Source of the DNA: an uncultured Clostridium sp.
GTDB taxonomy: Bacteria > Bacillota > Clostridia > TANB77 > CAG-508
Direction: 5' to 3'
DNA length: 33,458 nucleotides
Assembly: GCA_947057505.1 (NCBI GenBank)
Contig: CAMSEM010000003.1
Location: forward strand, 1 to 33,458
Both the position numbers and the translations under genes were made by a program. The notes beneath the pieces were generated by a model, which saw only the letters and a program-made list of their open reading frames with translations, was not told the origin of the DNA and made no database searches. Shown piece by piece: positions 2 through 25,914 of this stretch. How positions within the stretch are numbered: position 1 is the first letter of the stretch; every line of letters starts with the position of its first letter.

Positions 2-1099
2 CGTTCACCCGGGCGAAAGAGAAGCTTATCATTACCGGAACTATGTCAAATTCCAGAACTATCAGAAAAATACCGCATTTTGATACGTTATTTTGAAACC
101 AACTTCTACCCAGATGGCAGAAATGTATTAAACACAAAACGTTCTGTTACAACAGCTTCTTCTGAATTAGATAATTTACTACGCTATCCTGGTGTAAAAA
201 ATATTTTGTGTAATCGTTCTAACAACTTAAATACAGACAAATTGCTATCAAAAGGTGAAGTAACTTTATTGTGTACTCGTAGAGGAGATTTAGGAGAAAC
301 TGCTCACAAGGCATTTGGCTTATTCTTCTTATTACTATTACAACAATCTATTCTTTCTAGACCTGGAAATGATAGTAATCGTATACCGCACTTTTTATAT
401 ATTGATGATTTTCCAACTTATATTTGCAAAGCAACTGAACCAATTTACACTCTATACCGTAAATATAAAATTGGTACTGTATTAGACTCACAAAACCTAA
501 CACAGTTAAAAGGTGATTTATCAGCTGATGGTAGAGGAGATTATTATAAAGATTTAATTCTTTCTAATACTGTTAACAAATTTATTTTTGGTAATGCTCT
601 TCCAGAGGATGTACAATGGTGGCAAACAGCAATGCAAGATAAAAGAGAATGGACTTTCAGTAATACCTATAATGCAGATAAAACAGAATATGATCCTAAA
701 AAAGGTAATATTAGTTTAGCTTGGAAATCTAATTTTGCTGCTGGTAAAATTATGTCTTTGAAATCTAAACAAGTTATTTACAAAATTAAAGATGCAAAAG
801 GATCTAGTAAAGTAAATAAAGGTAAAGTAGATTTTATGGAATCTAAATATAAAGAACCTAAAAAACTTAAAAAATATGATTTTACTAAGTTTACTAATGG
901 TATTTCAGACATAGAAACTGCTGCAAGAAAAGCACTTGAAAAGAATAAACCTAACTATTCAGTTATTACATCATCTAATGATAATTATGATATTGACAGA
1001 GAAATAGATCCAATTCAAACAGATATATCTGATTCTAGATTTTTATTTGATAATGAAGATGCTATTGTGGTAAACTTTAAAAATAAAAAAGGCGAATAA
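2..1099 (+). CDS. VirD4/TraG-like (HerA-type) ATPase C-terminal part, 5' truncated by the window edge
   Basis: Frame is open from base 2 (…LPELCQIPELSEKYRILIRYFETN…), so the listed TTG start at 80 is probably internal. Walker-B-like 'PHFLYIDDFPTYI' and C-terminal 'GTVLDSQNLTQL' resemble type IV coupling proteins. No Walker A visible in the window. Confidence 0.5.
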   Translation, partial: RSPGRKRSLSLPELCQIPELSEKYRILIRYFETNFYPDGRNVLNTKRSVTTASSELDNLLRYPGVKNILCNRSNNLNTDKLLSKGEVTLLCTRRGDLGETAHKAFGLFFLLLLQQSILSRPGNDSNRIPHFLYIDDFPTYICKATEPIYTLYRKYKIGTVLDSQNLTQLKGDLSADGRGDYYKDLILSNTVNKFIFGNALPEDVQWWQTAMQDKREWTFSNTYNADKTEYDPKKGNISLAWKSNFAAGKIMSLKSKQVIYKIKDAKGSSKVNKGKVDFMESKYKEPKKLKKYDFTKFTNGISDIETAARKALEKNKPNYSVITSSNDNYDIDREIDPIQTDISDSRFLFDNEDAIVVNFKNKKGE

Positions 1100-3164: not shown

Positions 3165-3497
3165 TTAGTCCTTTTTTTCGCCTAAAACTTCCTTTAGGTG
3201 TTTTATTCTTTTGGTTTCTTCATTAATCTCATAAATTCCTATTCTGGTTAGCCCTAATGCAATAATCGCTAATATCGCATGTACTATGATAATACCTATC
3301 CCATTATAGTAAACAACATCAAGTACAATTGATACAATATTGGCTAAGAATATTATTGCTACAGCTATCGTTGCCATTTGCCAATAGCGAAGTGATGACA
3401 TTTTATTTAGTCCCAAATGCCATATTAAGCAAGTCGCTAGGACTAAGATAGCTAATAGCAGCACACCATCATTAATAGTTCTAATTACAGTTTCCAT
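3165..3497 (-). CDS. small hydrophobic membrane protein, unknown function
   Basis: 110 aa with about three hydrophobic segments; AGGAGG-type RBS upstream of ATG. Confidence 0.6.
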   Translation of the reverse strand: METVIRTINDGVLLLAILVLATCLIWHLGLNKMSSLRYWQMATIAVAIIFLANIVSIVLDVVYYNGIGIIIVHAILAIIALGLTRIGIYEINEETKRIKHLKEVLGEKKD

Positions 3498-3622
3498 GCT
3501 TCATTCCTCCTTTTATTGATGTAAAATGTTATATTGTAAAACTAAAAAGAAAGGAATTGTTTTTCCTCACTATTTAGTGAAAAAAAGTAATATGAACTTT
3601 CTATGTATGCATTATATCACAA

Positions 3623-4532
3623 TTATTTACATAACTCAAGTTTTTTTAGTATTTCTTCAAAATATTGTGGTAGAGGTGCTTCTAAGTGCATCTGTTTTTT
3701 AGTAATTGGGTGAATAAAGTCTAGGCTTTTGGCATGTAGCATTTGTCCTACTACTCCAAATTCATTCTTTCCATTAGAATATACCATATCTCCAACTACT
3801 GGATGACCTATTTCTGCCATATGTACTCTTATTTGATGGGTTCTTCCTGTTTCTATAATAACTTGCATGAATGTATAAGTTCCATATCTTTGTAGCACTT
3901 TAAAATGTGTAATGGCTCTTTTTCCATTTCGAGTTACTGCCATTTTCTTTCTATCTTTTGTACTTCTTCCTATTGGCATATCAATACTTGCCTCTTCTTC
4001 TGGTACATTTCCTCGAACTAAAGCTAAATACATTTTCTTTACTTTTCTATCTTGTATTTGATTGCTAAGCTCAATGTGTGCTTTATCGTTTTTGGCTATG
4101 ATTAGTAATCCAGAAGTATCTTTATCTAAACGGTGGACAATTCCTGGGCGTAGCTCTCCTCCAATGCCAGATAGGTCTTCTTTACAATGTGCCATGATAG
4201 CATTTACTAAAGTTCCATCTGGGTTTCCGGTTAGCTGGGTGTACTACCATTCCTTTTGCTTTATTTACTACGATAATGTCATTATCTTCATAAATAATAT
4301 CTAATGGAATTTCTTGTGCTTTTAAGCTTGTTTGTTTTACTTCTGGTATGTCAATGGTAATGCTATCTCCTTCTTGTACTATATAGGAAGTTTTGGTTTT
4401 TTGGTTATTTACCAGTATTTGTTCTTCTTCTATTAGCTTTTTTATCATCATACGAGATAAGTCTACATTTTGATTTGCAATATATTTATCTATTCTTTCT
4501 TTTGCATTACTTTCTACTTTTATTTCTTTCAA
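3623..4532 (-). CDS. rluD: RluA/RluD-family pseudouridine synthase, split into two frames at an in-frame CGG codon
   Basis: ORF 4182-4532 (S4 domain, 'IIVVNKAKGMVVHPAN') and ORF 3623-4195 ('GIVHRLDKDTSGLLIIAKND…GRTHQIRVHMAEIGHPVVGD') form one protein. +1 shift at CGG (plus coords 4227-4229) gives 'HPAN|GNPDGTLVNAIMAHC'. Confidence 0.9.
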
Positions 4533-23448: not shown

Positions 23449-25914
23449 TTAAAGTGCCTCAAAGCCGAGCACCGCGCGGAAACTGTGGCTGCTGCCAGAA
23501 TTGCCACTGTTGTAGTACGAATAGAATACACCAGCATTACTTCCATTATTGAAACGACCACCGCGTACGAAGAACGGACTGCTCGAATAAACGAAGGTAG
23601 AGTAGTCGCTGAACCAGCCAGTAGTTCCACTTACGTAAACCTCTTTCGTAGCATCTCCTGTTTTACATACGGTATAAATATCTGTTCCATAATTATTACT
23701 TGTTCCATGATAGGCTGTTGCATATTTGGTACTTGCTCCTCCTGTTGTTGCAAATGAGCTTCCATTGCTGATATAACTACTTGTATTGGTATTCCATGCT
23801 GCTGTATATTCATAAGCTCCTCCACTCATGTCATAGATACCATATGTGTTTCCAGTGGTACTTTGTTTTTGATTATTTGCATTTGTATATGCTGTTTCCC
23901 CTTGTGCTCCTCCTGTATAGAAACTACTATTTCGATTGATTGCTATTTCATGCCCATTTCTTCCATATTGACTATGGGTTAAATATGCTACTGCTCCCCA
24001 TTCGCTATTTTTTGCCATATGGCTATTCATAAAACTTGTTTTATTATCAAAACTATCTACTGTTCCTGTTTGTCCATAGGTAGCTTCTCTTCCTATGGTA
24101 TAAAATTCTCCTATTGTTCTACTTCTTAAGCTTTGCACTCCTGGTGTACTTGCTAAGTTTGTACTTTCTGTTCCACTCATTTCAAATTTGGCAAACCAAA
24201 AGCCTGTAAGAGTATCTCCCCAGCCACCATTATTAATGTTCTTTGTTTTTTGTGCCTGGGTAGAGCCCTGTTTTGCTCCAAAGGCTGGATGGACTATATA
24301 TTTATAACCATCTGCTGCTTCTACTGTTTCTATTCCATCTTCTAAGCTATACCTTAGTATCCCATCTTCACTCCACATACCATAGCCATCATAATAGCCT
24401 AGTTCTTTTGCCTGGTCTGTTTGGCTTGTATAATAGGTTATTCTATAGGCATACCTAGGTATCCATACAAAATAGCTTCCATTTTGTGTTTTGGCATTTG
24501 CCCAATGGCTTGCATTATTATCTGCATTTCCCGTTATTGCTTTATATTCATACCACTCATTTCCACTATTGGCTTCATTTGCTGTTTTTTCAGTTGTTCC
24601 ATCCCATTTAATTGGTGTCATTTTATTACCAGTTGTTCCTAATATTGGTGATTTGGGCTGTGGTATAATATTGTTGTTTTCATCTAGCCAAATAACATCT
24701 ATTCTTCCATAACCATTTTCTACTGGTGTATTAGTTGGGTTAGTTCCTAAGATTGGTGCTTTTCGTTTTACTTCTACTTTATGTGAAATGGTTTCTCTTT
24801 TGTTTCCTGCTATATCTACTGATAGTACATGTAAATAATAATCACCTGGTTGGCTTGGAACAGTTATAATAATTGGGTGTGTGCTGTTACTGAATGCATC
24901 AGCTGTGTTCCACACTGTATTATTTACATTTAGATTGGTACTTGTGGTATTGAATAGCCATTTACATTTTGTGATATCTATTTTAGTTTGATTGTCTGTA
25001 TGGGTTACTGTTGCTAATTCCTTTTCTCCTATTGTTGTACTTAATGTTAATCTTGTAATAGTTGCAAGCTCTGGTACTATACTATCTAAAATACTTACAC
25101 TTGCTTCATCTGCTGCATTTCCTTCATCATCTATTAGTCTTGTAAATATGGTGTCTCCATGTCTTAGTCCTTCTACTGTTGTTCCTTCCATCCACATTCC
25201 GCTAATACTATTTTTTTGCCATTGCATTTTTAGTCCGGTAGTAGTACTTAGAGTTACTGTTGCATTTTCATTTGCAGTCCATATTGGTGCACTTACTGTG
25301 ATGGTTCCTGTAATTAGGTTGGGACTTTGTGTATTTGCTCTTGCTTTTGCCTGACTTGGTGTTAGTACTTCTTTTAAGGTCATATTATCGTCACCATCTG
25401 TTTCAACAGTTGCCACATAGCCATCTTTGGTGGTTATGGTATAGGTTTCTTTTTGGCTTGTTAAGGTTTGCTGTATATTTTGTGCCACTTGATTTGTAAC
25501 TTGGCTTGCTAACTTAATAGGTGTTGTAGTTGCAAGTTTGGCTACTAAACTAGTTTGTTTTTTTTTATTGTTTGCTTCTACTATTTTATTTTCTTCTTTT
25601 ATTACTTCTTTGGTAATATCTGCTGGGCTATTAATAAGTCCTGCTTGTACTAATTTTTGCCAAAAGTCTTCTATATTTAATTTTGGATTTAGTAGTTTTT
25701 CTGCCTTATAATTTACTATTTCAATACTTAATTTTTCTTCTATTTGTGCTTTTTTATGGCTTTCTACTGATGCTTGTGCTATTTGCAAAATATTGCCATC
25801 TGTAAAAAGAAGGTTAGCGCTAACTCCTGCTAGTATTAATAACACTGCAATTGTTACTACTAATGCAATTAAGGTTATTCCATAGTTTGATTTTAATTCT
25901 ATTTTTCTTACCAT
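23449..25914 (-). CDS. prepilin-like N-terminus fused to a SUMF1/C-lectin-fold C-terminal domain (candidate variable surface protein)
   Basis: N-terminus 'MVRKIELKSNYGITLIALVVTIAVLLILAGVSANLLF' (prepilin-like); C-terminus 'FFVRGGRFNNGSNAGVFYSYYNSGNSGSSHSFRAVLGFEAL' (FGE/C-lectin fold signature). Start chosen by SD (AGAGGAG) spacing. Confidence 0.8.
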   Translation of the reverse strand: MVRKIELKSNYGITLIALVVTIAVLLILAGVSANLLFTDGNILQIAQASVESHKKAQIEEKLSIEIVNYKAEKLLNPKLNIEDFWQKLVQAGLINSPADITKEVIKEENKIVEANNKKKQTSLVAKLATTTPIKLASQVTNQVAQNIQQTLTSQKETYTITTKDGYVATVETDGDDNMTLKEVLTPSQAKARANTQSPNLITGTITVSAPIWTANENATVTLSTTTGLKMQWQKNSISGMWMEGTTVEGLRHGDTIFTRLIDDEGNAADEASVSILDSIVPELATITRLTLSTTIGEKELATVTHTDNQTKIDITKCKWLFNTTSTNLNVNNTVWNTADAFSNSTHPIIITVPSQPGDYYLHVLSVDIAGNKRETISHKVEVKRKAPILGTNPTNTPVENGYGRIDVIWLDENNNIIPQPKSPILGTTGNKMTPIKWDGTTEKTANEANSGNEWYEYKAITGNADNNASHWANAKTQNGSYFVWIPRYAYRITYYTSQTDQAKELGYYDGYGMWSEDGILRYSLEDGIETVEAADGYKYIVHPAFGAKQGSTQAQKTKNINNGGWGDTLTGFWFAKFEMSGTESTNLASTPGVQSLRSRTIGEFYTIGREATYGQTGTVDSFDNKTSFMNSHMAKNSEWGAVAYLTHSQYGRNGHEIAINRNSSFYTGGAQGETAYTNANNQKQSTTGNTYGIYDMSGGAYEYTAAWNTNTSSYISNGSSFATTGGASTKYATAYHGTSNNYGTDIYTVCKTGDATKEVYVSGTTGWFSDYSTFVYSSSPFFVRGGRFNNGSNAGVFYSYYNSGNSGSSHSFRAVLGFEAL

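Follow-up and report, generated by a model that had tools for sequence, protein, structure and literature searches.

Probable diversity-generating retroelement variable region at the C-terminus of a putative prepilin-like, C-lectin-type protein from an uncultured Clostridium

The DNA considered here (the window) is a stretch of 33,458 nucleotides from an uncultured Clostridium sp., corresponding to contig C3 of a MAG (G000) that comprises 1.23 Mb in 113 contigs, with 87.6% completeness and 2.41% contamination. On its reverse strand lies a gene for a protein of 856 aa, whose last codons form a candidate variable region (VR) of the type written by diversity-generating retroelements (DGR). The features of the locus are collected in Table 1.

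Table 1. Features of the target gene in the window
Feature	Position	Strand	Description and basis
Target gene, 856 aa	23449..26019	(-)	Prepilin-like N-terminus, middle region and C-terminal SUMF1/FGE-like domain ending in the VR; ORF list, genome-wide paralogues
Prepilin-like N-terminal segment (...SNYGITLIALVVTIAVLLILAG, cut after G), possible class III signal and membrane anchor	25822..25893	(-)	PF07963 match
SUMF1/FGE-type (C-type lectin) domain	23452..24480, conserved core ~23779-23970	(-)	PF03781 and PDB profile match
Near-invariant block 5' of the VR (GGAGATGCTACGAAAGAGGTTTACGTAAGTGG...)	23614..23688	(-)	Common to all four copies
VR, ~149 nt	23465..23613	(-)	53 columns variable across four own-genome copies
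NNY codon run TAC TAC AAC AGT GGC AAT TCT GGC AGC AGC CAC AGT	23482..23517	(-)	Direct reading
GC-rich 3' end of the VR (TTCCGCGCGGTGCTCGG), position of a putative IMH-like element	23465..23481	(-)	Conservation

The prepilin-like character of the N-terminus, proposed in a preliminary description of this DNA, is suggested by the motif G/ITLIALVVTI (the slash marks the cut), which was recognised by eye and recurs both in a full-length paralogue of 726 aa on contig C8, with the same prepilin-like start (GITLIVLVITIVVMLILAG), and in the relatives L094-L097. The match to the Pfam family N_methyl (PF07963; E=0.032), however, reaches 14.2 bits and so stays below the curated cut-off of 21.2. A prepilin peptidase (PF01478) is present on contig C9 of the same genome. 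The proposed SUMF1/C-lectin fold of the C-terminal domain is favoured by sequence profiles but not by structure prediction. The window protein matches FGE-sulfatase (PF03781) with a sub-threshold E=0.0017, and 4 of 15 relatives match this family as well. When a profile of the target family was compared with the PDB, the best match was 5vf4, a DGR variable protein of Thermus aquaticus (E=1.1e-4), followed by the FGE-like PvdO (0.56); a profile built from a narrower alignment had no match in the PDB. AlphaFold models based on 6 and 15 sequences had mean pLDDT values of 33 and 41, a low confidence at which no fold can be assigned and a Foldseek search is meaningless.

The composition of the gene changes sharply towards its 3' end. 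The GC content is 48.7% in 23450-23599, compared with 34-40% in the gene body and 23-33% directly 3' of the gene, and the coding-strand adenine fraction is 0.20 in the last 165 nt versus 0.41 in the preceding 435 nt. The GC rise and the run made up wholly of NNY codons, which had led the preliminary description to propose a DGR-type variable region, are both present. Its position had been given as 23449-23600, which is the right place, although slightly narrow for a block that extends over approximately 23465-23613. It had also been stated that neither a reverse transcriptase (RT) nor a template repeat (TR) is visible here, and this holds for the whole window, where no near-copy and no RT ORF occur; other parts of the genome do contain RTs and additional copies of the block. 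The 3' end of the VR is conserved among the four VRs of this genome except for two single-copy changes, and also in the TR and VR of an orthologous DGR from genome G034 described below; by analogy, it may have an IMH-like role. A stable hairpin 3' of the VR, as known from some DGRs, was not found.

With 23449-23640 as a query, the search of the own assembly returned three further copies, on contigs C99, C21 and C8, being 90%, 83% and 79% identical, respectively. Each of them forms the 3' end of a paralogous gene, and the stop region is the same in all; the C21 and C99 genes are cut by contig ends. The jump in GC content is limited to these four block-sharing copies (0.47-0.52 in the last 180 nt), with values of 0.24-0.40 in the other own-genome paralogues examined. 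Approximately 15 paralogues of the target domain exist in this genome, and, since only the four VR bearers among the paralogues examined show the GC jump, most of them look like ordinary, non-diversified relatives. Non-diversified relatives of the targets have likewise been noted for multi-target DGRs elsewhere (PMC3521204).

The differences between the copies are confined to the block, as would be expected for site-restricted variation, which is seen here between paralogues within one genome. Between the window and C8 there are 33 differences in the 150 nt of the VR block but 10 in the 360 nt just upstream (Fisher P = 2.3e-11), and the two genes share 225 consecutive identical bases starting about 150 nt upstream of the VR. 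In the adjoining near-invariant block, any two of the window, C21 and C99 copies differ at 1-3 positions in 66-75 nt, and pairs that include the C8 copy at 6-8. In the four-copy alignment, 53 of 149 columns are variable. Adenine occurs in 39 of these 53, with 34 of the 39 located at codon positions 1-2, and in only 8 of the 96 invariant columns. The variable columns lacking adenine (n=14) comprise 13 with C/T and one with C/G/T, and 10 of the 14 fall at codon position 3. This combination, with adenine-containing variable columns at the first two codon positions and nearly pure C/T exchange, mostly at the third, in the remainder, corresponds to the AAY-to-NNY signature of DGRs. The 14 columns without adenine speak against clean writing from a single template, and they imply either that the VRs do not all derive from one TR or that ordinary drift has accumulated. 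At 23689-23763 of the window, 5' of the conserved 75-nt block and outside the main VR, the paralogues show another small cluster of non-synonymous differences (TAYHGTSNNYGTD).

The preliminary description had pointed to the full genome as the place where an RT and a template should be sought; a DGR-motif RT was found on contig C26 and a second cassette on C73, while the cognate TR is absent from the assembly. The C26 cassette is complete for its three genes, in the order MutS domain I protein (152 aa), Avd and RT. The respective profile matches are MutS_I (PF01624) with E=2.7e-6, bAvd with 1.4e-16, which is above the cut-off, and RVT_1 with 6.4e-19. The Avd protein also matches NCBIfam DivGenRetAVD (1.7e-18, below the cut-off of that model) and phrog_3206 ('Avd protein of DGR'). 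The RT, the sole complete DGR RT of the assembly, contains the motifs IGNYTSQ and YLDD and matches phrog_1423 (1.5e-101). The element GxxxSQ is a hallmark of DGR RTs, for which the motifs are defined as (I/V/L)GxxxSQ and YxDD (PMC3521204). As the genes next downstream of this cassette, judged by eye, are those of translation factor IF-3 and ribosomal proteins, it looks chromosomal. In relatives, the TR is situated downstream of the RT, but no TR matching C26 was found at this place. The second cassette, on C73, has intact ORFs for a MutS_I-like protein and for an Avd protein (above the bAvd cut-off), and then an RT of which only an N-terminal fragment of ~76 codons precedes the contig end. Mis-binning of the cassette contigs is possible in principle, given the contamination of 2.41%; a VR is, however, borne by two long contigs, C8 and that of the window, the latter with topA and further core genes. 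Two further RT pieces at contig ends (G000:C60:6304-7401 and G000:C37:10532-11338) look like group II intron fragments and were set aside; the C37 piece has an adjacent match to the intron RNA RF02005 (L017).

A second family of SUMF1/FGE-like proteins with VR-like tails is found beside the C26 cassette, at 1-213 of L012 (G000:C26), upstream of the RT. Five further copies of this tail are located at C1:9895-10098, C1:33006-33133, C5:9811-10015, C71:1489-1678 and C58:300-427, and several of the tails are frameshifted or stopped. BLAST of the own assembly revealed no template repeat for the C26 VR-like tail. Two readings are conceivable: this second DGR may be in decay, or the assembly may lack its TR too. 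At 3345-4298 (-) of L137 (G000:C9), a further FGE-like paralogue, of the same type as the C26 targets, adjoins the prepilin peptidase gene region.

The TR that corresponds to the window VR was not detected when the own assembly, 87.6% complete, was searched by BLAST with the VR; it was probably lost at contig breaks and would lie beyond the end of C73, in the unassembled part of the genome. An exact VR core pattern had no match in viral and genome contig collections, from which records of the own genome are possibly left out. The best foreign match of the window VR is instead a TR/VR block in a genome of the same family, G034:C177 (L058), whose TR is 71% identical to it. This locus (1-2861) contains a complete DGR, with MutS_I-like, Avd and RT genes on one strand and, on the opposite strand, the TR (613-766) and the VR (161-314), the latter within a SUMF1-like target. 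All 16 changes from TR to VR occur at adenines. The C73 and G034 proteins are 71% (Avd) and 75% (RT N-terminus) identical, far above the 25% and 45% found between C73 and C26, which identifies C73 as the orthologue of the G034 cassette. The adenines of the G034 TR also predict which columns vary in the genome under study, as 29 of 38 adenine columns vary compared with 26 of 116 others (P=3.9e-9), and no choice made on the sequences of that genome entered into this test. Seven other related loci have a MutS_I-like/Avd/RT cassette flanked by TR and VR, close to the RT, and the TR/VR differences located at template adenines amount to 10/11, 11/12, 11/12, 17/18, 21/22, 21/22 and 25/27. The direct TR/VR proofs thus come from relatives, and in the own genome the restriction to adenines is shown indirectly, through the orthologous TR and the codon positions. 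A related RT (E<=1e-20) is found in 34 of 59 related genomes. The closest named relatives in GTDB genomes are uncultured Clostridia MAGs; near the more divergent ones (L093-L097, 40-48% identity), the flanking DNA examined contained no DGR.

The data taken together support the initial proposal of a DGR-type variable region, as an RT with the DGR motif exists in the genome, the variation is site-restricted, and the variable positions are predicted by an orthologous TR. We consider that the reverse-strand segment 23465-23613 is the VR of a DGR target, one of several scattered paralogues rewritten from a template, with a probability of about 0.93. It is proposed that a template RNA rich in AAY codons would be copied by the DGR RT with its Avd partner and the associated MutS_I-like protein, that adenines would be misread during copying, and that the mutated cDNA would then replace the 3' ends of several scattered paralogous genes, including the one in the window. 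The products would be prepilin-like-anchored proteins with a C-terminal C-lectin domain of the SUMF1/FGE type, displayed at the surface; given this combination of anchor and domain, the rewritten residues probably belong to a face that binds ligands at the cell surface. The writer of the window VR is likely to be the C73-type DGR, since C73 is orthologous to the G034 cassette, whose TR resembles this VR and predicts its variable columns.

It is conceivable, though unlikely, that this is a fossil VR, with fixed remnants as targets, and that the DGR which wrote it no longer has its TR or RT in this lineage. The absence of the TR from the own assembly would fit this, as would the state of C26, where the region downstream of the RT lacks a matching TR and several target-like tails are frameshifted or stopped; Treponema denticola strains with leftover targets have also been described (PMC4891356). 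Against a loss of the writer speak the four VRs, which are all open in frame to the stop codon, the differences between the window and C99, which are almost only at A-type sites, and the MutS_I-like and Avd ORFs on C73, which are intact up to the contig end. A somewhat smaller chance is given to the C26 DGR acting in trans and writing the window VR in place of the C73 DGR: no other DGR RT in the assembly is complete, but the C26 cassette adjoins, and is related to, the other target family (C26:1-213, C1, C5, C71 and C58), and it is C73, not C26, that is orthologous to the DGR with a TR resembling the window VR. That the four copies are ordinary paralogues, with C-termini diverged by diversifying selection or inter-paralogue recombination and no reverse transcription, is very improbable, for although some 15 domain paralogues exist and most of their tails differ without a DGR signature, the divergence of the VR block is ~8-fold above that of the adjoining body, the adenine-containing variable columns lie at codon positions 1-2 with the others almost all C/T, the columns that vary can be predicted from the adenines of an orthologous, independent TR, and recombination between paralogues would be expected to make the block more uniform rather than to create new states only at adenines.

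DGRs with many remote FGE/SUMF1-type targets are already known, and targets of the pilin type have been proposed or shown elsewhere. The TvpA-type FGE-sulfatase targets of T. denticola are surface lipoproteins. The DGR of that organism serves up to seven such remote targets (PMC4891356), and the system studied here resembles it in being chromosomal, in having scattered paralogous FGE/C-lectin targets rewritten in trans, and in the remnant targets that are also found there. It differs from the TvpA-type targets and HRDC accessory protein of T. denticola (PMC4891356) by the prepilin-like anchor and the MutS_I-like accessory protein. Cassettes with Avd and the MutS-like accessory protein MSL (PF01624) are also known (PMC10053308) and share the gene set of MutS_I-like protein, Avd and RT with GxxxSQ, whereas here the targets are dispersed and the own TR is unassembled. 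A hypervariable C-lectin-type tip on a pilus-associated anchor has already been proposed, in that PMC12632263 cites work on Bacteroides type V pilus tip pilins diversified by a DGR, and PMC6642488, citing Paul et al., links putative pilin structures to DUF1566 DGR targets. Type V pili, however, are lipoprotein-derived and belong to Bacteroidota, unlike the type IV prepilin-like N-terminus in Clostridia considered here. The T. aquaticus variable protein 5vf4 (PMC6328139), although the best PDB profile match, is remote and comes from another organism with another anchor. According to one survey (PMC6642488), 28.6% of DGRs have multiple VRs. The combination of a type IV prepilin-like anchor with dispersed targets in small-genome Clostridia was not found in the open-access papers examined.

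We tentatively suggest that this lineage of small-genome gut Clostridia might carry some 15 prepilin-anchored C-lectin proteins, at least four of them rewritten in trans by one DGR, that a second DGR with its own scattered targets might coexist, and that the outcome could be antigenic or ligand variation on type IV-like pilins. If display on type IV-like pilins is true, pili with a tip diversified by a retroelement would comprise two types, the other being the type V pili of Bacteroides. The system would also be a tractable case of a DGR that belongs to a bacterium rather than a phage and acts in trans on a number of probable surface proteins; DGRs are common in the uncultured gut lineage concerned. 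It is also worth noticing that the sequence by itself sufficed to recognise a VR with no retroelement on its own contig, which could subsequently be linked to a distant cassette.

A further observation concerns the template RNA. A search for the Rfam RNA RT-14 (RF02921) gave nothing above the cut-off in the own genome and a match of 56.8 bits at 788-936 (+) of L058 (G034:C177), between the TR and the RT. This placement, 22 nt after the TR, points to RT-14 as the structured 3' portion of a DGR template RNA.
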